Below the pieces are notes generated by a model. The model searched no databases. It saw nothing but the letters and a program-made list of their open reading frames with translations, and was not told where the DNA came from. The position numbers and the translations under genes were made by a program. This document shows positions 3,513 through 14,043 of a DNA stretch of 14,358 nt, one piece after another (within the stretch, counting starts at the first letter, position 1; every line of letters begins with the position of its first letter). This stretch comes from Halieaceae bacterium. GTDB taxonomy: Bacteria > Pseudomonadota > Gammaproteobacteria > Pseudomonadales > Halieaceae. The stretch lies in the NCBI GenBank assembly GCA_009886815.1, contig QXYP01000209.1, positions 1 through 14,358 of the forward strand, in the 5' to 3' direction.

Positions 3513-4772
3513 TCAGTCTTCGGGTTCGTCACTGATAATGAGCGCTCGTAGCAGAATTTCGCGCTGGCGCTCAACGAGGTCTCTGTGGCCGTCGGCGAAT
3601 TGTCCTAGCCGATAACGCCCCGGTGGCGCCTCTTCGATGCCTACGCGGTTCATGAGCTGGACATCCTGTGTCAGGGTCTCAGACAGGTGAATTTCGTTTC
3701 CTGACTGACGTGCTAAGGCTTCCAGTTCATCTACCGCGGCTTGGGTGTAGAGGCCCGGGTAAATGTCTTCGCCATCGCCGCGTCCTAGTTCACTGCCACC
3801 GACGGCGAGCCCCAGCCCAACGGACAATCTCAGCTGCTCCTCTAGTTTTGGTGCTGTCTGTTGAATTAACCAGGCGCAGCTTGCTGCCCGGACGGTCGGT
3901 GAGGCAATTTTATGTTTACCGTTAAACCATACGGCAATACCGAACTGGCGAACGACCTGCAGCTCACCGTTATAAAAACCTGCAGCACCGTAGATCATGC
4001 GATGTATGTGAGCGACATAGCGCTGTAACCGTCGCTCATCTACCGTTTCCAAATAGCCAGGAAGACTTCTGAAGTGGATAAATAAAATGGCGGTTTCGAC
4101 GTAGTGTTGATCCCCCAGACTTTGCTGTTGTGTGGGAGGCTTGAGTAGGTCCAGCGGCAGCGCGGCAACACGCTCTCTCAGTGCTTCGATCTCGTTGGCA
4201 CTCACCTGCTCAGTATCCCCAACAACCCCAAGCTCGGCGGCTACGGCCTGTAAATTTTTACCCAGCCGTAAAGCCAGAGTTCGGGTGATCAAATAAACCG
4301 CAATGCTCAGTAAAATTGCCAGACCCGATAGGCTGAGCACAAATTGGAACTGTGTACTGTCACTAATGGCTGTACTGAGGGCGACTTCGGCAACACCGGC
4401 CTGATCACCCGCAATCATAATGGGTGCCTGGAAAATCGAACTGCTAGACTTTTGATCGCCAACTGCCACGAGTTCGCGCTTATCAACATCGAGTGCTCTG
4501 GCCGCAACGATACGCTTCTGTTCGGCAAGTTTGTTCAGCTCGCCTGCAATACCCAAGCGATCACCGGTTGCCATCTCTGCACCGAGTCGCCGCGCTAATT
4601 GCTCGGCCACGGCCTGTCCATACTCCCCTTGAAGGGTGGCCTGACTGTGACTGCTGGACTGTGCGGCTAACCCTACCAGCGCAAGACTAGAAATCAGACA
4701 GCAAAGGCATGCGGTTGCTGCCAGCTGCTGGTGCAGGGGTAGGCGACTAATGACTGTTGCAAGTGCGCGCAC
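3513..4772 (-). CDS. Two-TM membrane protein with degenerate nucleotide-cyclase-like domain (SMP/AhpA position next to serB)
   Basis: The 419-residue protein has an N-terminal membrane helix (about 17-37), a periplasmic region (about 38-142), a second helix (about 143-164) and a HAMP-like linker (about 165-210). A cytoplasmic domain (about 226-370) has the layout of class III adenylate/guanylate cyclases: AILFIHFRSLPGY, a helix, GFYNGELQVVRQFGIAVWF, and LRLSVGLGLAVG. The two metal-binding aspartates expected in such domains appear replaced, His233 for the first and Phe277 for the second, so catalysis is unlikely. It is divergent from serB with a 79-base spacer. E. coli ytjB/smp (SMP or AhpA family) occupies the same place, and an uncharacterised protein does so in Pseudomonas. 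A role as a membrane sensor or scaffold is an inference. The family name rests on context and architecture, not on a strong motif. Confidence 0.7.
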   Translation of the reverse strand: MRALATVISRLPLHQQLAATACLCCLISSLALVGLAAQSSSHSQATLQGEYGQAVAEQLARRLGAEMATGDRLGIAGELNKLAEQKRIVAARALDVDKRELVAVGDQKSSSSIFQAPIMIAGDQAGVAEVALSTAISDSTQFQFVLSLSGLAILLSIAVYLITRTLALRLGKNLQAVAAELGVVGDTEQVSANEIEALRERVAALPLDLLKPPTQQQSLGDQHYVETAILFIHFRSLPGYLETVDERRLQRYVAHIHRMIYGAAGFYNGELQVVRQFGIAVWFNGKHKIASPTVRAASCAWLIQQTAPKLEEQLRLSVGLGLAVGGSELGRGDGEDIYPGLYTQAAVDELEALARQSGNEIHLSETLTQDVQLMNRVGIEEAPPGRYRLGQFADGHRDLVERQREILLRALIISDEPED

Positions 4773-6416: not shown

Positions 6417-7367
6417 GTGACAGACTGGCGCCCAGGGGCTAACCACGTCATCCAGCGGCAGCGTGCCGCTTTGCTTGCCGATCTCAGAGACTACTTCGCA
6501 AAACAACGTGTTATGGAAGTCGAAACCCCGCTGCTGTGTCGGGCGGGTGTATCAGACCCTGCCTTGGAAAATTTTGAAGTGCCCTGCGGTCATGAGATGC
6601 GCTTTTTACAGACCTCACCTGAGTACGCTATGAAACGCCTGTTAGCGGCGGGTAGTGGTGATATTTTTCAAATTTGTAAGGCCTTTCGTTGGGAGGAGCA
6701 GGGGGTGCGTCACAACCCCGAATACACCTTGCTCGAGTGGTACCGCCTAGGTATTGACCACTATCAACTGGCACGGGAAGTGGGAGAGCTCGTGGCGGCT
6801 GTGCTAGAGCGCCCGGGCTGGCAAATTTGGTCATGGCAGGCGATTTTTCAGGAAGTCCTCGGTGCAGGTGCTCACACGGCTCCTCGGGAAGAACTTGAGG
6901 CGCTGGCTATGGGCCATCTGGGAGAAATCCCCTTGGGCCTTGATCGCGATAGCTTGCTCGATTTATTGATGAGTCACTGCGTGGAGCCTGCGATAAACGA
7001 TTGGGGTATTGTTTTTATTATTGACTATCCGGCATCTCAGGCGGCGTTGGCACAACAGATTCTTGACGTGGCAGGGGAGCCTCGGGGAGCGCGCTTTGAG
7101 TGTTATGTAGACGGCACAGAGCTTGCAAATGGCTATTGGGAGTGCGGTGATGCTGCTGAGCTCAGGGCACGTTTTGCCGAAGATAACAGTTTGCGGAAGG
7201 CGCGAGGCCAAAGCGACCGTAGGCCTGACGAGCAACTTTTAGATGCTTTAACAGCAGGTTTGCCTCCTTGTGCAGGCGTTGCGTTGGGCGTAGATCGTCT
7301 GCTGGCGCTCAAAACAGGTGCCCAGGATTTAGATGCTGTCCTGAGCTTTGCGTGGTCACGGAGCTAA
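6417..7367 (+). CDS. epmA: EF-P--(R)-beta-lysine ligase EpmA (GenX/PoxA/YjeA)
   Basis: EpmA is a paralogue of class II lysyl-tRNA synthetase that activates (R)-beta-lysine with ATP and attaches it to EF-P Lys34. At 316 residues it consists only of the catalytic domain, without the tRNA anticodon-binding domain, as expected for EpmA and unlike LysS. Visible signatures are VMEVETPLL (32-40), TSPEYAMKRLLAAG (66-79), class II motif 2 FQICKAFRWEEQ with HNPEYTLLEWYR (84-110), TELANGYWE (234-242) and motif 3 GVALGVDRLLAL (287-298). The start is a GTG 9 bases after the efp stop with no clear Shine-Dalgarno, so translation may be coupled to efp. Its stop TAA (7365-7367) overlaps, tail to tail, the TAG of the leftward thioesterase gene. 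Confidence 0.95.
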   Translation: MTDWRPGANHVIQRQRAALLADLRDYFAKQRVMEVETPLLCRAGVSDPALENFEVPCGHEMRFLQTSPEYAMKRLLAAGSGDIFQICKAFRWEEQGVRHNPEYTLLEWYRLGIDHYQLAREVGELVAAVLERPGWQIWSWQAIFQEVLGAGAHTAPREELEALAMGHLGEIPLGLDRDSLLDLLMSHCVEPAINDWGIVFIIDYPASQAALAQQILDVAGEPRGARFECYVDGTELANGYWECGDAAELRARFAEDNSLRKARGQSDRRPDEQLLDALTAGLPPCAGVALGVDRLLALKTGAQDLDAVLSFAWSRS

Positions 7368-7816
7368 AGGGGCTCGAGGTTGAGCACGACAGGGCCGTAT
7401 CGATCTATGAAGTCTTGGGGGGGACGGCGCGGTTTGCCCGAGGAGATTTCAATACAGACGAACTGGTGTTTGGCCCGAAGCACCGTTTCACCTGAGCGAC
7501 TATCTATGATTTGAAATTGGCGCTCCATGGTCAGCCTTCGGTCCCACCGGGTAATCCAGGTGCCAACCTGAAGTTCATCGTTTTCATGGGTTGCCCGCAG
7601 ATACTGGTATTGCGCCTGTGTGAGTGCCATTGCGCGGTTCAGCGATCGATACTGAGCCTCCCCGAGGCCTAGGGCACTGGTGTGGGACCAAGCGGCCTGT
7701 TCGCACCAGTTGACGTAAACGCCGTTGTTGGTATGCGACAGCGCATCGATATCCTCGGGACAGACGGTCACCAAAATCATATGGGGATTAGGGTAGTCCC
7801 AGTCGAGGTTCGTCAT
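7364..7816 (-). CDS. Acyl-CoA thioesterase, 4HBT (hot-dog) family
   Basis: This 150-residue hot-dog fold protein probably hydrolyses an acyl-CoA or acyl-ACP thioester in the cytoplasm. The family signature is near the N-terminus: DIDALSHTNNGVYVNWCE, with candidate catalytic Asp24 and the H-x-N-N motif at 28-31, as in YbgC/FadM-type enzymes. It continues with the expected strands (LTQAQYQYLRATHENDELQVGTW and LTMERQFQI). I chose the ATG at 7816 rather than an in-frame start further upstream because it forms a 4-base ATGA overlap with the antiporter stop, and the family motif falls at the usual distance from it. It is the last gene of the apparent operon running from 12562. Its substrate is unknown; the context suggests trimming or recycling of modified fatty acyl chains. 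Confidence 0.85.
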   Translation of the reverse strand: MTNLDWDYPNPHMILVTVCPEDIDALSHTNNGVYVNWCEQAAWSHTSALGLGEAQYRSLNRAMALTQAQYQYLRATHENDELQVGTWITRWDRRLTMERQFQIIDSRSGETVLRAKHQFVCIEISSGKPRRPPQDFIDRYGPVVLNLEPL

Positions 7817-9237
7817 ATCGCCGTTACAGGCTCTGCGGGTTTCTGCGCAATCACCAGGTAGCCGAGAGTGATCGCGACGAGTGGGCAAACATAATTGAAA
7901 ACGGCGAAGGGTAAGTATTCAAGGGTCATAACACCTAAGGTGGCGCTCATATAAGCGCCACAGGTATTCCAGGGAATGAGCACTGAGGTCAGTGTGGCAG
8001 AGTCTTCTAGCGATCTTGAAAGGTTCAGTCGGCTCAATCCACGCTCGTCAAAGGCGACCGTAAACATGCGTCCTGGTAGCGCAATGGCTAGAAATTGATC
8101 TGCGGCGAGAACATTGGTGATAACCCCGCCTGTCACTGTCGCTAGTATCAAATCGCCCGTGCTGCGCACCCTCTTGAGGGCAGCATTTAACAAGTGCGCC
8201 AGAATGCCTGTTCGCTCAAGAACACCGCCGAAGGACAGCGCAGTCACGATCAACCATACCGTGTTCAGCATGCTTGCCATGCCACCTTTACTGAGTAGTT
8301 CATTAAGGGATGGGTCTGTACTGCTGCCGGTATAACCCGCAAACAATACCGTCCACAACCCTCTTACAATGGGTGCAGGACCCTCTTTGTCTAGGCTTTC
8401 CCCGAAACGCTGTACCGCGTCGGGCTGCACCAAAAGGGCAAAGACAATACCGATAGCGGTTGAGAGTAAAATAGCAGGGTAGGCGGGTACTCTGAGAAAA
8501 ATAAGCATCAGCATGCCGACCAACGGTAGCAGGCTGTACCAGGCAACATCGAACTCCGCCGCGAGTGCTGTGCGCAGCTGCGCGATATCCTCGGGTGGGC
8601 GAGTGGCTTGCTCACTGTTCATCATTAGAAAAAAGATGAGCGCAATGGCAAAGGCCGGAACAGTTGTCCACAGCATATGGCGAATGTGCTGAAATAAATC
8701 GACACCGGCACAAGCCGCTGCAAGATTCGTGGTATCGGATAATGGCGACAGTTTATCGCCAAAATAGGCGCCGGAAATAATGGCCCCCGCGGTCATAGCA
8801 CTCGAGAGACCAAAGCTCTCGGCGATACCAATAAGGCCTATCCCCAGTGTGCCGGCGACGGTCCAGGAGCTGCCAATACTGATGGATGCCAACGCGCAGA
8901 TCACCGCAGAGGCGGCGTAGAACAGGGCGGGGTCTAGCAGGGCAACGCCGTGATAAATCATGGCTGGCACGGTGCCGGCCAAAATCCAACTGCCGATCAA
9001 TGCGCCGACAGCGAGCAAGATAAGAATAGGTCCAAGTCCGACCTGAATGCCATCGGTTAGCGCTTTCTGAATGTCGGCCCAGCTAAGACCACGGCGCAAC
9101 CCCACCAGAGCTGCAACCCCTGTGGCAACGACAAGAACGATCTGATTCGGTCCGTAGGACGCATCGGAACCAAACAGCTGTACGGCGCCTGCCAGCATAG
9201 CCACCAGCAGGACTATGGGCACAAGAGAAAGTAGCAT
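7813..9237 (-). CDS. nhaC: NhaC-family Na+/H+ antiporter
   Basis: This polytopic inner-membrane protein of 474 residues has about 11-12 hydrophobic segments. The NhaC family exchanges Na+ for protons; some relatives exchange organic acids such as malate and lactate. The diagnostic stretch is GAYFGDKLSPLSDTTNL (156-172) followed by AGVDLFQHIRHM, preceded by SISIGSSWTVAGTLG (118-132). A second-half repeat includes LSFGGVLERTG and NVLAADQFLAIALPGRMF. The start ATG lies only 3 bases after the upstream methyltransferase stop, and its end overlaps the thioesterase start by 4 bases (ATGA), so it is almost certainly in the same transcript. An ion antiporter inside a ChrR-linked lipid operon is unexpected. 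The family is clear; the transported ion or solute is not. Confidence 0.93.
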   Translation of the reverse strand: MLLSLVPIVLLVAMLAGAVQLFGSDASYGPNQIVLVVATGVAALVGLRRGLSWADIQKALTDGIQVGLGPILILLAVGALIGSWILAGTVPAMIYHGVALLDPALFYAASAVICALASISIGSSWTVAGTLGIGLIGIAESFGLSSAMTAGAIISGAYFGDKLSPLSDTTNLAAACAGVDLFQHIRHMLWTTVPAFAIALIFFLMMNSEQATRPPEDIAQLRTALAAEFDVAWYSLLPLVGMLMLIFLRVPAYPAILLSTAIGIVFALLVQPDAVQRFGESLDKEGPAPIVRGLWTVLFAGYTGSSTDPSLNELLSKGGMASMLNTVWLIVTALSFGGVLERTGILAHLLNAALKRVRSTGDLILATVTGGVITNVLAADQFLAIALPGRMFTVAFDERGLSRLNLSRSLEDSATLTSVLIPWNTCGAYMSATLGVMTLEYLPFAVFNYVCPLVAITLGYLVIAQKPAEPVTAI

Positions 9238-9240
9238 CGG

Positions 9241-10497
9241 TTATTCCGGACGGTAGCCGGGTTTTGCCATGGTTATTTGAAAAGTTCCAATGATTCTTTC
9301 GCGAAAACCACCTTCACAGTAGCTGAGATAGAAGCGCCACATGCGAATAAACCGATCATCAAAGCCCATCTCTTTCACCTTTTCAGTCTGCCCCAGGAAG
9401 CCATGGTGCCATGCTTCTAAGGTGCGTGCGTAGTCTAGGGTGATGTCGCGCAGCTGAGTGATCTGAAGATCCGTGTGCTTGGCAAGGTTTTCGCTAATGA
9501 CTCTTAAGGACGGCAGGCAACCCCCAGGGAAAATATAGCGCTTGATGTAATCAACGGATTGCCGGGCAAAATCATAGCGCTGATCAGGAATAGTAATGGC
9601 CTGAATGACCGCTTTGCCGGTGGGTTTTAGTAGCTTGCTGACACAGCGAAAGTAGCTTTCGTAAAACTCATGCCCCACTGCTTCAATCATTTCAATGGAG
9701 ACCAGTTTGTCAAAGGAGCCCTCTAATTGGCGATAGTCCTGGCACAGCACCGTGATTTGGTTTTCTAAGCCCGCGGCTTTTACCGCCTCCAGAGTATATT
9801 GATATTGCTCTTTAGAAATTGTCGTCGTAGTGACTTTGCAACCGTATTGCTGGGCGGCGTACATTGCCATGCCACCCCAACCCGTCCCTATCTCAATCAA
9901 TTCATCCTCAGGCTTAAGTTCCAGTGACTGACAAATGAGCTCGAGTTTGTGCACCGCAGCTTCATCGAGGGTTGCCGAAGCACTGGGATAGGCGGCTGAC
10001 GAATACATCATGGTGGGGTCAAGAAACAGGTTGAAAAAATCATTTCCCAAGTCGTAGTGCGCGGCAATATTTGCTTTCGAGCCCGTCTCTGTGTTGCGAC
10101 GACCAAAGTGCGCGAGCTTTAAGCCTATTTGCATGATCCAGCTCTGCTTATCTTTCATTGCCATCATGGTTTCCATGTTGGCACTGAACAATCGAGTGAC
10201 TTCAGTGAGATCTCGGCTACTCCACTCGCCATCAATATAAGCTTCACCCGAAGCTATCGTTCCGCCAGTGAGGATGCGCCAGTAGGTCCTATCGTCATGC
10301 ACATCGACGTGTGCGTGGGGTGCTTCGGGCCGCTCATCGTTACCAAGAGCAAACACCTCTTCACCGTCGTGCAGCGTCAGCGTGCCGACACGAATATTTT
10401 TAAGCAGGCGTAAAAGTAGCTCTCTAGCCACTTTGGGCTGTACTGCTCGGCTGAGAGTGGGCAGCTTTAAAATGTTTCGCACACTGGATTCAGACAT
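9241..10497 (-). CDS. Cyclopropane-fatty-acid-synthase-like SAM methyltransferase
   Basis: The 418-residue protein belongs to the Cfa/mycolate cyclopropane synthase family (COG2230 type), which transfers a methylene or methyl from SAM to an unsaturated acyl chain in membrane phospholipid. An N-terminal lipid-binding region carries GEAYIDGEW (84-92). The catalytic domain begins with HYDLGNDFFNLFLDP (147-161), has SAM motif IEIGTGWGG (201-209) and EMIEAVGHEFYESYF (269-283), and continues YIFPGGCLPS and DYARTLEAWH. By my alignment from memory, the Cys and His of the E. coli bicarbonate site are Ser167 and Ala300 here, while Glu272 and Tyr356 are kept. A methyltransferase without ring closure (as in furan fatty acid synthesis) is therefore possible. 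I chose the ATG at 10497, with GAGG 8 bases upstream, over a TTG at 10527. A 41-base gap separates it from the DUF1365 gene. Confidence 0.9.
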   Translation of the reverse strand: MSESSVRNILKLPTLSRAVQPKVARELLLRLLKNIRVGTLTLHDGEEVFALGNDERPEAPHAHVDVHDDRTYWRILTGGTIASGEAYIDGEWSSRDLTEVTRLFSANMETMMAMKDKQSWIMQIGLKLAHFGRRNTETGSKANIAAHYDLGNDFFNLFLDPTMMYSSAAYPSASATLDEAAVHKLELICQSLELKPEDELIEIGTGWGGMAMYAAQQYGCKVTTTTISKEQYQYTLEAVKAAGLENQITVLCQDYRQLEGSFDKLVSIEMIEAVGHEFYESYFRCVSKLLKPTGKAVIQAITIPDQRYDFARQSVDYIKRYIFPGGCLPSLRVISENLAKHTDLQITQLRDITLDYARTLEAWHHGFLGQTEKVKEMGFDDRFIRMWRFYLSYCEGGFRERIIGTFQITMAKPGYRPE

Positions 10498-10538
10498 GGG
10501 GGTAACCTCGGTGGTTCTCTTCAGCAAAAATTACGGGG

Positions 10539-11282
10539 CTATCCTCGGTTCGGATGAGGATGAAACGGAACCCCTTTTAACCAAAGTTTCAGCGCTTGCC
10601 AATAGATAGCAACAATGACCTTCAGCGTCATAAATGGAAGTCCCCAAATAGCCCGGTTCAGCTGAGTCGCCGAAAACGGGTGGGCCTCCAAAGATAAGGT
10701 GGCATCAAAAATCTTTTCGTTGTCCTGAAAATTGCTCAGTTTTATGGCCAGCTGATCGCCGGGCGCGCTGCTAGACCAATGATAAACCATATCCATGGGG
10801 TTGAATGGAGAAACATGCAGGGTCTTTTGAAATTTTGTGTGGACTTTGCCCTGGGAGTCGGTCACCGGAATCACATAGCTTCGACGCTCATCCCAGGGGG
10901 TATTGGTCACCTCAGCAACAACAAACTTTAGGGTATGGCCATCGGGGGCATAGCAGAAGTAGCAGGCAATAGGGTTGGCCTGAATGCCAAAGTAGCGCCA
11001 GTTCGCTAGGAGATAAATAGAGCCTAGATCCTGGGGCCCACACTGCTCTGCAATGCGGTTTTTGACCGCGTCAACGAGGGGAGTTTGCGCGTCTCCCAAA
11101 AAGTCGCTCCGTCGGAACGCCGCGGGAGCCCAGCGCCGTGCAGACCAAAAGGGGATGTCATCGGTCAGGCCTGGAAGGGCGTCTAACTGCACCAAGGGCA
11201 TAAAGACTTTGTAAGAAAATCGGTGTTGCTTTGGGCTGTGGCGGCAGTGAAACAAGGTGCCACGGTATAACTTTGAAATCAT
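10539..11282 (-). CDS. DUF1365 family protein
   Basis: This 247-residue protein has the DUF1365 pattern: it opens with [24 protein letters not shown], has [21 protein letters not shown] (about 93-113) and [13 protein letters not shown], and then [18 protein letters not shown] hydrophobic stretch near the C-terminus (about 213-231, [19 protein letters not shown]) could associate with the membrane. The biochemical activity of the family is not established to my knowledge. It recurs next to FAD amine-oxidase-like and Cfa-like genes, often with sigma-E/ChrR, so a step in fatty acid modification is inferred. Its ATG overlaps the stop of the FAD gene by 4 bases (ATGA at 11279-11282), indicating translational coupling. 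The histidine-rich N-terminal part might bind a metal, but that is speculation. Confidence 0.9.
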
Positions 11283-12562
11283 GCGGCCATTGAGTCCGTC
11301 TCAGCTAAGGCTTCTGCAACCCTTAGACCGCTGACTAGACCATCTTCGTGAAAACCATTTCGCCAATAGGCGCCACAGAACCAAGTGTTGTTAACGCCAT
11401 TGATTTCCTCCCAGCGGCTCTGTGCTTCAACCCCGGCCACGGTGAACTGGGGGTGGGCGTAGTTGAATCGACCCAGAATGCGCGCGGGGTTAATAGATTC
11501 AGTATCGTTCAGTGTGACGCAGAAGGTTTCCGGCGCTTCAATCCCTTGGAGTATGTTCATGTTATAGGTGACGACTGCTCTGTCATTGCCGGGGCGCATG
11601 CGATAGTTCCAGCTCGACCAGGTACGCCGGTTGCGGGGGAGTACTCGATCGTCCGTGTGTAAGACCACATCGTTGTCGCGATAGGGTATGGCGCCAAGAA
11701 TCGCTTTCTCCTTGACTGATGGCTCAGCCAGCATGGCGAGGGCCTGATCCGAATGGGTGGCGATCACAACTTGGTCGAACTGGCGCTTTGTGCCGTCCTT
11801 AAAGTGAAGCTGTACGCCTCTGCCAGGTATGCGTTCAACCCTCTGAACCGGATGGTTTAAAAAGATTCTGTCTTCGAAGCCGAAGGTTAGGGGCGGAATA
11901 TACTCTCGGCTGCCACCCTCTATAACACGCCATTGAGGGCGGTTGGCCACTTGCAGTAACCCGTGATTTCGAAAGAATCGAATAAAAAATTCTACCGGAA
12001 AATCTCTGGCGTCTGAAAAATCAGCTGACCAAATGGCAGAAGTCATAGCCAGCAAATAGTCTTTACAGAAGGCAGGGCTATAGCGTCTTCTATCGAGATA
12101 GGTGCCTAGGGTTTCCCCTGTTGCAAGCTTCCCTGCGTCCAAGTCTGCAACCGACTCTTTATTGAAGCGCAAAATGTCTTTCACCATAGAAAGAAATCGG
12201 GGGGAGACCAAGTTTTTCCGTTGCGCAAATAGGGCATTCAGGTTGTTTCCGGCATATTCCAAGCCGGTTGTATCATCGGAAACCGAAAAGCCCATGGCTG
12301 TGGCCCGAGTGGCCACGCCCAAACTCTCAAGGAGTTCAATAAAGTGAGGGTAGGTGTGATCGTTGTAGACAATAAAGCCGGTGTCAATGGCGTAACGACG
12401 GGCCCCCAGCTTCACGTCATAGGTGGCTGTATGACCTCCTATACGATCGGCTGCTTCAAAAACAGCAATGTCGTGTCTGAGAGCTGCCAGCCGGTGGGCG
12501 CAGCCCAAGCCGGAAATGCCCGACCCGATTATTGCAACCTTCACCCGCGTGTCACCTGCCAT
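11279..12562 (-). CDS. FAD-dependent amine-oxidase-like oxidoreductase (COG2907 type)
   Basis: This 427-residue flavoprotein has a Rossmann nucleotide-binding motif at the N-terminus: [19 protein letters not shown] (GxGxxG at 13-18) with an acidic residue at the end of the second strand (Glu36) and then [10 protein letters not shown]. The C-terminal FAD motif is [20 protein letters not shown] (about 396-415). The substrate region includes [16 protein letters not shown]. Relatives are often annotated as cyclopropane or cyclopropene fatty acid synthesis proteins because they sit beside Cfa-like genes and belong to sigma-E/ChrR regulons. An oxidation or desaturation of a methylated fatty acid is a reasonable inference, not shown here. 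It is the first gene of the leftward operon and is preceded by a candidate ECF promoter. It is divergent from the sigma factor gene. Confidence 0.92.
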
Positions 12563-12581
12563 ACTTAAGTTATTGGTATCA

Positions 12582-12611
12582 GGGTTACGTGCTGCTAGGG
12601 GCCGCGGATCA
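12582..12611 (-). promoter_or_regulatory. Candidate sigma-E/ChrR-type promoter for the divergent lipid operon
   Basis: On the minus strand TGATCC (12611-12606) is followed after 18 bases by TAACCC (12587-12582). The known -35 of the sigma-E/ChrR group in Rhodobacter is TGATCC, with a TAAG-like -10 at about this spacing; here the -10 is TAAC, so the match is partial. Transcription would begin roughly 10-15 bases before the ATG of the FAD gene, giving a very short leader. I found no equally good site on the plus strand for the sigma gene itself. Confidence 0.45.
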
Positions 12612-12679
12612 ACGTGGTTGTGATGGCGGCAGCTTCGTGTATGCTGAATGTCGAAATTTCACAAGTTTTGCGGTGCGGT

Positions 12680-13303
12680 ATGGTTGAAGTTAAAAACGAT
12701 GGCGAGGCAGACTCGGGGCGTGGCTCTGGGAAGTGGACCGTGCCTACTGGGCGACGGACCGACGAATGGAGCGAATGCTTGGTATTAATCGGGAAAAGTA
12801 ACGATCGCGCATCGTTCACCCGGTTTTTTAGGCATTTTGCACCCCTTATTAAAGCGTTTGCCTTGGCTGGCTCGAGTATGTCCGCAGCCCATGCCGACGA
12901 GTTGGTTCAAGAGGTTATGCTCAAGGTTTGGCAAAAAGCGAGCGGTTTCAACCCAGAAAAAGCGGCTGCCAGTACCTGGATCTACACGATTGCTCGAAAT
13001 TGCCGGACAGATATGTTTCGTCGGCTACAGAAGTTTGACACGCCATTGGCGGCAGACGATCTCAACATTGAGCTTGAGGGCGAAGAGCCCTTCACTGTAT
13101 TGCATACCCGCCGTGGCTCAGACCGCATCAAAGATTTGATGGGGCAGCTACCTCCAGATCAGGCGCAAATTTTGGCCAAAGTCTACATGGAGGGTAAGTC
13201 GCACTCAGAGGCGGCGGCTGAGCTCGACCTGCCCTTGGGCACTGTTAAGTCTCGAGTTCGGCTGGCTATTCAAAAACTACAGGTACAAATGGACAGGCAG
13301 TAA
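12680..13303 (+). CDS. rpoE: ECF RNA polymerase sigma factor, RpoE/ECF11 type
   Basis: This is an alternative sigma factor expected to be held inactive by the ChrR protein encoded next to it. Region 2 runs from FTRFFRHFAPLIKAFAL through ADELVQEVMLKVWQKASGFNPEKAAASTWIYTIARN (DNA melting and -10 recognition). Region 4 includes LPPDQAQILAKVYMEGKSHSEAAAELDLPLGTVKSRVRLA (the -35-binding helix-turn-helix). The start is uncertain. The reading frame is open from 12614 (GTG), with ATGs at 12623, 12641 and 12680 and a GTG at 12740 that has GGGAAG 6 bases upstream and would give a 187-residue protein of typical length. I list the ATG at 12680 (207 residues); none of the ATGs has a good Shine-Dalgarno. 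The conserved part begins near TDEWSECL. The partner gene follows after 89 bases. Confidence 0.9.
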   Translation: MVEVKNDGEADSGRGSGKWTVPTGRRTDEWSECLVLIGKSNDRASFTRFFRHFAPLIKAFALAGSSMSAAHADELVQEVMLKVWQKASGFNPEKAAASTWIYTIARNCRTDMFRRLQKFDTPLAADDLNIELEGEEPFTVLHTRRGSDRIKDLMGQLPPDQAQILAKVYMEGKSHSEAAAELDLPLGTVKSRVRLAIQKLQVQMDRQ

Positions 13304-13348
13304 ACCGATTGATGAGCTGAGACGTAGGACTCTGAAACAATCAGTAGG

Positions 13349-13375
13349 TATTTCGGACTTCTCTAAGCCGAAATA
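13349..13375 (+). promoter_or_regulatory. Hairpin in the sigma - anti-sigma intergenic gap
   Basis: TATTTCGG (13349-13356) pairs perfectly with CCGAAATA (13368-13375). Inside it, CTT (13358-13360) pairs with AAG (13365-13367) around a CTCT loop, leaving A13357 bulged. There is no T-run after it, so it is not a standard terminator. It ends just before the AAGGG ribosome binding site (13378-13382) of the anti-sigma gene and could set the sigma to anti-sigma expression ratio or act as an RNA processing site. Confidence 0.5.
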
Positions 13376-13392
13376 TTAAGGGCAACTCAGCT

Positions 13393-14043
13393 ATGGCAAA
13401 ACATCATCCTTCCAACGACCTCTTAATGGAGCACGCAGCCGGCAGTCTTCCGGTTGCCCAGGCGGCTTGCGTAGCCGCGCACTTGTCTTACTGCGAGCGC
13501 TGCCGGCGCATCGACAGTCAACTGCGAACACTCGGGGGAGCCATGCTGGAGCGGCTTGAACCCGTGTCAGTATCCGAGGCACTGCTCGATAATGTCTTGG
13601 CCCGGCTGGAGGACCCAGCGCCGTTGTCCTACAGCGATCAAACCAAGGGCACCGAGCTGCCGGGTTTGCTTGAAAGGCTGATAAATAAAGACTTTAGCCA
13701 GTTAGTATGGAAGCGAGTTACCCGCGCCTTGAGCGTGAGCTATCTGTCTACGGGCGACACCAATCATGAGTTTGCACTGTTGCGCATTGCCGAGGGTGGT
13801 CGTATTCCAGAACATACCCATGGCGGCAACGAGATGACACTGGTCCTTGAAGGGGGATTCAGTGACGGTAGAGACAGTTATCACCCCGGAGATTTTATCT
13901 TCCGGTCGAGTGAAGACAAGCATGCCCCGGTTGCCCTCGACGGCGAAGACTGTATTTGCCTGACCGTGCTGGATGCGCCTTTGCGCTTTACTAGCTGGCA
14001 GCATCGTTGGCTCAACCCGTTCCTTAAACTTCGCGCCAGCTGA
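13393..14043 (+). CDS. chrR: ChrR-type zinc-binding anti-sigma factor with cupin domain
   Basis: In Rhodobacter sphaeroides ChrR holds sigma-E inactive and releases it in response to singlet oxygen. This 216-residue protein has both ChrR domains. The N-terminal anti-sigma domain has the zinc ligand pattern His5, His30, Cys34 and Cys37 (H-x24-H-x3-C-x2-C). A linker (about 55-105) leads to a C-terminal cupin (about 110-198) with PEHTHGGNEMTLVLEG and DSYHPGDF, giving His141, His143, Glu147 and His177. These are the numbers of the zinc ligands reported for R. sphaeroides ChrR, and Cys187 and Cys189 are also present. AAGGG lies 10 bases before the ATG. It follows the sigma gene in the same direction, with a hairpin in the gap. 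This is the strongest pointer to a photo-oxidative stress role for the locus. Confidence 0.95.
   Translation: MAKHHPSNDLLMEHAAGSLPVAQAACVAAHLSYCERCRRIDSQLRTLGGAMLERLEPVSVSEALLDNVLARLEDPAPLSYSDQTKGTELPGLLERLINKDFSQLVWKRVTRALSVSYLSTGDTNHEFALLRIAEGGRIPEHTHGGNEMTLVLEGGFSDGRDSYHPGDFIFRSSEDKHAPVALDGEDCICLTVLDAPLRFTSWQHRWLNPFLKLRAS

Follow-up and report, generated by a model that had tools for sequence, protein, structure and literature searches.

A sigma-E/ChrR locus with a ufaD-ufaO-ufaM gene set and a conserved sigma-E-type promoter in a Halieaceae bacterium

Known ECF11 and ufa systems and the Halieaceae locus

The sigma-E/ChrR pair of Rhodobacter sphaeroides belongs to the ECF11 group (ECF, extracytoplasmic function), which is conserved across alpha- and gammaproteobacteria and has furan genes in its core regulon (PMC6852236). 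In R. sphaeroides and Rhodopseudomonas palustris, the enzymes UfaM, UfaD and UfaO convert phospholipid cis-vaccenate to furan fatty acid; UfaO carries DUF1365, and the R. palustris ufa trio is RPA2569-2571 (PMC7380195). Here we describe a window of 14,358 nucleotides from a Halieaceae bacterium (contig QXYP01000209.1), in which an ECF sigma gene and a chrR gene (12680-14043, plus strand) stand divergent from a row of five genes (7364-12562, minus strand) for an FAD (flavin adenine dinucleotide) oxidoreductase, a DUF1365 protein, a Cfa-like methyltransferase, an NhaC antiporter and a thioesterase. As judged from the sequence, it is highly probable that an ECF11 sigma-E/ChrR singlet-oxygen switch controls a complete ufaD-ufaO-ufaM furan operon in what is likely an aerobic anoxygenic phototroph. 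The features that bear on this reading are as follows.

12680-13303, plus strand: ECF11-type sigma factor (RpoE/sigma-E)
13393-14043, plus strand: ChrR zinc anti-sigma factor
11279-12562, minus strand: ufaD-like FAD oxidoreductase, predicted fatty-acyl desaturase (Amino_oxidase, PF01593; PMC7380195)
10539-11282, minus strand: ufaO-like gene, predicted furan-forming oxygenase (DUF1365, PF07103, E 3.8e-77; PMC7380195)
9241-10497, minus strand: ufaM-like, Cfa-like fatty-acyl methyltransferase dependent on S-adenosylmethionine (CMAS, PF02353, E 2.4e-85)
12586-12611, minus strand: candidate sigma-E promoter TGATCC-N16-CGTA before ufaD

By open reading frames and by Pfam, NCBIfam and PDB sequence searches, all seven genes were found where the original prediction had placed them, and the tight packing it described for the minus-strand row was confirmed, ufaD/ufaO and NhaC/thioesterase each overlapping by ATGA and the other gaps being 3 and 41 bases. 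The best solved-structure match of the sigma factor was R. sphaeroides sigma-E (2q1z/2z2s, E 9.2e-31), the next standing at E 1.8e-13; its likely start, chosen by conservation, is the ATG at 12680. ChrR matched TIGR02451 at 182.8 bits over a cut-off of 124.5. When aligned with R. sphaeroides 2z2s, its anti-sigma domain was found to carry H5, H30, C34 and C37 in an HX24HX3CX2C motif, equivalent to H6, H31, C35 and C38 minus one, and its cupin domain to carry H141, H143, E147, H177, C187 and C189, numbered identically to R. sphaeroides ChrR. We take H5, H30, C34, C37, H141 and H143 to be ligands. The other four, E147, H177, C187 and C189, are named as ChrR ligands (PMC6852236). By these matches and residues the window pair is a member of the known ECF11 sigma-E/ChrR kind, in agreement with the predicted sigma-E/ChrR identity and with the claim that a sigma gene and a chrR gene with the expected zinc ligands face the five named genes.

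With the R. sphaeroides regulon the window shares the ECF11 sigma factor, the ChrR ligands and ufaD/ufaO (RSP1091, RSP1090 in R. sphaeroides) as targets beside rpoE-chrR. In R. sphaeroides, however, ufaM lies elsewhere (RSP2144) and RSP1087-1089 are in the operon, whereas in the window ufaM is inside the operon and no sigma self-promoter was seen. The order ufaD-ufaO-ufaM of the window is that of RPA2571-2570-2569 in R. palustris, and three consecutive ufa genes are also present in the gammaproteobacterium Halomonas (PMC12089945). From the R. palustris and Halomonas sp. YLGW01 clusters, the window differs by NhaC and thioesterase genes after the ufa genes. The regulons of Pseudomonas syringae PSPTO_1043 and Shewanella RpoE2 share the promoter consensus and a cfa/ufaM-containing cluster as target (PMC5507510, PMC4336711), but these clusters include phrB and other genes, Shewanella RpoE2-chrR is autoregulated and the site is present at PSPTO_1043. 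Azospirillum lipoferum, Ensifer adhaerens and Qingshengfaniella alkalisoli likewise have chrR-ecf divergent from FAD oxidoreductase-DUF1365; they differ in that sigma and chrR overlap by 4 bases and, for Qingshengfaniella, in the lack of an adjacent ufaM.

The assembly of the window (2.7 Mb in 374 contigs, 86% complete) contains pufL and pufM, and aerobic anoxygenic phototrophy of the source organism is therefore very likely. Because the nearest named loci by DUF1365 are those of Luminiphilus metagenome-assembled genomes and of strain HTCC2080 (88 and 86% identity), we refer to its genus (g1 in the genome searches) as Luminiphilus. The locus is a compact set of three ufa genes in a gammaproteobacterium that has genes for the bacteriochlorophyll reaction centre.

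Promoter before ufaD and the Ufa enzymes

The sequence at 12611-12586, separated by 23 bases from the start codon of ufaD, is an exact match to TGATCC-N16-CGTA, a consensus derived by chromatin immunoprecipitation sequencing in P. syringae (PMC5507510); sites of this type precede mapped transcript starts in Shewanella (PMC4336711). The ufaD site was exact in 22/22 loci of the window's type, among which the spacer varies, and in 18 of the 21 loci of other Halieaceae, the remaining three, including L135, having one mismatch. Among 5300 shuffled intergenic sequences, one exact site and 31 sites within one mismatch were observed. Homologues of ufaD, ufaO and ufaM were found on the same strand in 79 of 80 loci around DUF1365 (L043 is without ufaM), indicating a grouping that is more than chance. 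The comparison of gene order across relatives that the original prediction had proposed upheld the three ufa genes, but not NhaC and thioesterase, whose adjacency is confined to the genus.

Light, oxygen and bacteriochlorophyll would generate singlet oxygen, upon which ChrR would be lost and sigma-E freed, as is known in R. sphaeroides, and the sigma-E RNA polymerase would use the site at 12611-12586. UfaM would then methylate phospholipid cis-vaccenate, UfaD would desaturate the product and UfaO would insert oxygen to form the furan, as the enzymes of R. sphaeroides and R. palustris are known to do, and the furan lipid would be consumed by singlet oxygen. The presence of ufaD, ufaO and ufaM in the R. 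palustris order agrees with the predicted link to furan fatty acids; together with the sigma-E/ChrR pair, the sigma-E promoter before ufaD and the reaction-centre genes in the assembly, it gives good support to the core of that prediction.

The product of the methyltransferase needs separate consideration. An ordinary cyclopropane synthase, by which the operon would make cyclopropane rather than furan lipids under stress, is suggested by the CMAS domain, by E. coli Cfa (6bqc) as the best solved-structure match, and by the expression of Halomonas ufaM in E. coli, which gave 11-methyloctadec-12-enoate but cyclic acids as well (PMC12089945). In a tree of 34 rows, however, 26 ufaM-like and 8 cfa-like proteins (labelled by us, two of the cfa-like rows being long branches) were separated at 95/91, the window protein standing with the operon-linked UfaM-like proteins and not with E. 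coli Cfa. At the positions of the Cfa bicarbonate ligands C139, E239, H266, I268 and Y317, the window protein has S, E, Q, I and Y. The Q at the H266 position was found in 119 of 126 aligned rows, a set that was not de-duplicated and in which two rows or more are repeats. The remaining seven rows consist of E. coli Cfa itself and six CMAS proteins retrieved when the family was searched with E. coli Cfa. Q was also seen in three alphaproteobacterial operon copies, against H in a Cfa-like protein of Rhizobium; in this residue the window protein resembles the operon-linked rows and not the Cfa-like ones. Furthermore, the methyltransferase is encoded together with UfaD and UfaO, and it is the only long CMAS match in the 86% complete assembly, two others being short (30.9 and 18.9 bits). 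On balance we regard cyclopropane production as improbable.

Several observations weigh against a sigma-E-controlled furan pathway in the window. Cotton cyclopropane synthases carry the same S/Q substitutions at C139/H266 (PMC3132707), a point in favour of cyclopropane production; loss of the Cfa bicarbonate ligands was accordingly rejected as proof of furan chemistry, and the S/Q pair is, at the level of sequence, a marker of the clade and not of the product. That the window enzymes are orthologues of those proven in R. sphaeroides and R. palustris is suggested by domains, by gene order and by a tree built with further operon-linked copies. The fatty-acid table of Luminiphilus syltensis (PMC3679898) lists no furan or methyl-branched acid; it refers to cells from plates, which may not have been induced, of a strain that may lack the locus. 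The column fitting the description of L. syltensis has 9.7% of 18:1 w7c, the UfaM substrate, and lists neither cyclopropane nor furan acid (PMC3679898), which speaks against the cyclopropane alternative also. These plate data would neither prove nor exclude an inducible pathway.

The distribution in the family is a further point on this side. Of 120 Halieaceae genomes drawn for a survey, 108 contained DUF1365, 105 ChrR, 110 NhaC and 42 PufL/M. UfaO homologues were present in 41 of the 42 genomes with PufL/M matches and also in 67 of the 78 without, and a tie between Ufa and phototrophy was therefore rejected.

On the side of regulation, the assembly has three exact copies of the motif at N16, which does not exceed the approximately five estimated by chance, and over N15-N19 the motif occurs 11 times against six for a reversed control pattern. 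The genome-wide count, being without clear excess, was rejected as evidence for a regulon, and the evidence for the promoter is therefore its position and conservation. Photolyases were likewise rejected as sigma-E targets, since none of three loci had a site within one mismatch and one had two-mismatch sites. In one subclade of the genus (L144, L146-L155), moreover, the ufaD site is lost in 11/11 loci, two of which have two-mismatch sites, its place being taken by a conserved block that includes TTGACA and TGTATAT. Gene order, sigma and ChrR are kept in this subclade, as are the sigma recognition region and the ChrR ligands in 9/9 aligned of the 11 loci. This loss would fit control of the ufa operon by another light regulator such as LitR/MerR, the TGATCC site being a relic. 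A related Pseudomonas cluster is in fact light-induced through LitR, with sites of TGTACA-N12-TGTACA (PMC9758184), so that changes of regulator are known for a ufa-type cluster. A relic is, however, hardly to be expected to stay exact in all loci of the window's type despite a varying spacer, and we consider such control of the window most improbable; control by sigma-E remains the preferred reading.

Outside the control of ufaD, TGATCC-N16-CGTA, exact or with one mismatch, was observed approximately 100-150 bases before a gene for an HlyD/RND (resistance-nodulation-division) membrane-fusion protein in L092, L202-L205 and L207. As a second target this gene is a lead only, the site being present in 5 of the 27 congeners that have the gene, the closest kin only. 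A second, weak Cfa-like match was noted near ufaD in several clusters outside the genus (L018, L024, L057 and others).

Upstream region of the sigma gene

12637-12645, plus strand: GTGTATGCT element upstream of the sigma gene, possibly -10-like

Autoregulation of rpoE-chrR is usual in the ECF11 group, although it does not strictly define it. In the 300 bases upstream of the window sigma gene, no TGATCC-N16-CGTA was detected within two mismatches at the N16 spacing. Within one mismatch, such a self-promoter was found in 0/33 loci of the genus (L010, without a sigma gene, was dropped from the counts), as compared with 15/21 loci of other Halieaceae and, in a separate scan, 27/34 further loci. 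At two mismatches the only genus loci were L014, where the site overlaps the ufaD site read backwards, and L004 (HTCC2080), where a wider scan placed it inside the coding region. Since these loci are related by descent, the genus counts represent a trait of the clade and not 33 events. Among four alphaproteobacterial loci scanned, Azospirillum and Qingshengfaniella have TGATCC-N16-CGTA in both directions, Ensifer has it only towards sigma, inside the annotated start, and Rhizobium tropici has none. Because Azospirillum and Qingshengfaniella share the divergent layout with sites both ways, this layout and the sigma self-promoter are probably old, and positive autoregulation of the sigma gene appears to have been lost in the window's genus.

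In place of the self-promoter, an element GTGTATnCT was found in 30/33 genus loci, against 0/21 loci of other Halieaceae and approximately 0.1 expected from shuffles in all, at a nearly constant position of 54-73 bases from the aligned sigma start. We infer that it is the -10 element of a housekeeping promoter, and hold this reading tentatively because the -35 is poorly conserved and the element was not among the sites given by a simple sigma-70 scan. Neither GTGTATnCT nor TGT-N12-ACA was found in two pufL/pufM loci. The gap between sigma and chrR was 88-219 bases in 31/31 measured genus loci, against -8 to 44 in 21 others. From these differences one may propose, as a possibility short of probable, that the Luminiphilus switch, formerly self-amplifying, has become constitutive or even self-limiting through rewiring: GTGTATnCT, sigma-70-like, would have replaced the self-promoter, sigma and ChrR would have been untied by the long gap and made without positive feedback, and NhaC and thioesterase would have been captured into the stress operon. 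In such a rewired locus, sigma-E polymerase engaged at ufaD could obstruct the sigma gene, giving negative feedback. The -35 of the ufaD promoter (12606-12611) is close to the element at 12637 in the window; in loci with longer intergenic stretches such blocking would be less likely. Rewiring would have gone further in the subclade without the ufaD site.

It may instead be that sigma autoregulation is kept, a degenerate sigma-E promoter or one of other spacing still acting. The scan covered a single spacing within two mismatches, a TGATGG at approximately 12621 resembles a -35, and 6/21 other Halieaceae loci are also without a self-promoter within one mismatch, so that its absence may come easily. 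The clade-wide absence, with only L014 and L004 at two mismatches, and the conservation of a different element at a near-constant distance make persistence of the loop rather unlikely. A tie between loss of the self-promoter and phototrophy was not clear from five phototrophic loci of other genera, in which the site was exact in L136 and L143, had one mismatch in L139 and was absent from L127 and L164.

If the rewiring holds, a phototroph producing singlet oxygen daily may gain from a graded response. With its loop apparently cut and its target promoter exact, this marine phototroph genus offers a natural experiment on the purpose of autoregulation. Among the matches listed from the open-licence literature, no paper on the Halieaceae locus or on a missing ECF11 self-promoter was found; the lost self-promoter, the untied sigma-chrR and the captured NhaC/thioesterase would represent a variant that we did not find described.

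NhaC, thioesterase and other features

7813-9237, minus strand: NhaC-type Na+/H+ antiporter (TIGR00931, 415.8 bits over a cut-off of 370)
7364-7816, minus strand: 4HBT-type thioesterase (4HBT_2), its ATG at 7816 overlapping the NhaC stop
13348-13376, plus strand: hairpin in the unusually long sigma-chrR gap

NhaC stands directly behind ufaM in 35 of the 36 genus genomes with DUF1365, the other having NhaC on another contig, but in 0/72 such genomes of other Halieaceae genera. A thioesterase homologue follows NhaC in many Halieaceae loci. In 33 of the 72 genomes of other genera, NhaC was on the strand of ufaO and 2.3-15 kb downstream of it. Opposite-strand frames intervened in 14/14 annotated loci of other genera that hold NhaC (L165 and L166, with NhaC at approximately 1 kb, are outside these 14). 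Pfam matches of the intervening frames in two loci were to a helicase, a VRR-NUC/FAN1-type protein and EamA transporters. Because of these frames, NhaC and thioesterase most likely came to lie behind ufaM by a deletion or rearrangement in the genus line; there they would be carried along by the ufa promoter. The five genes could still form one unit of lipid modification or pH homeostasis, NhaC and thioesterase serving the furan pathway by, for instance, balancing protons and clearing oxidised acyl chains, and ufaM-NhaC gaps of 2-18 bases in 32/32 measured genus loci are in line with this. The separation of NhaC from ufaM in the 72 genomes of other Halieaceae genera, the intervening frames, and a scan of 16 NhaC genes from outside the genus, none of which had an exact sigma-E site within 400 bases (one had a one-mismatch site and two had two-mismatch sites), make such a unit unlikely. 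The predicted five-gene lipid-modification operon was not supported as a functional unit, NhaC and thioesterase being neighbours of ufaM in the window's genus only. Its description as a compact variant holds only for the joining of NhaC and thioesterase in this genus, the three-gene ufa unit being an ordinary form. Operon neighbours such as NhaC can thus be newcomers.

An Rfam search of the window gave nothing at the gathering threshold. Scans for sigma-70 promoters (7 promoter-like sites vs 4.7 in shuffles) and for terminators (7 vs 6.9) were uninformative. A frame of 419 codons at 3513-4772 on the minus strand had no Pfam match at E 0.001.

The hairpin at 13348-13376 is close to the chrR start, and folding gave z -3.5 for 13330-13380 and -2.3 for the whole gap. 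By eye, related inverted repeats were recognized in L004 and L005 and, weaker, in L003, the outer stem not being kept in relatives. Also by eye, an open frame of 35 codons was observed in the gap directly after the sigma stop in L009, L011, L012, L013 and L015.

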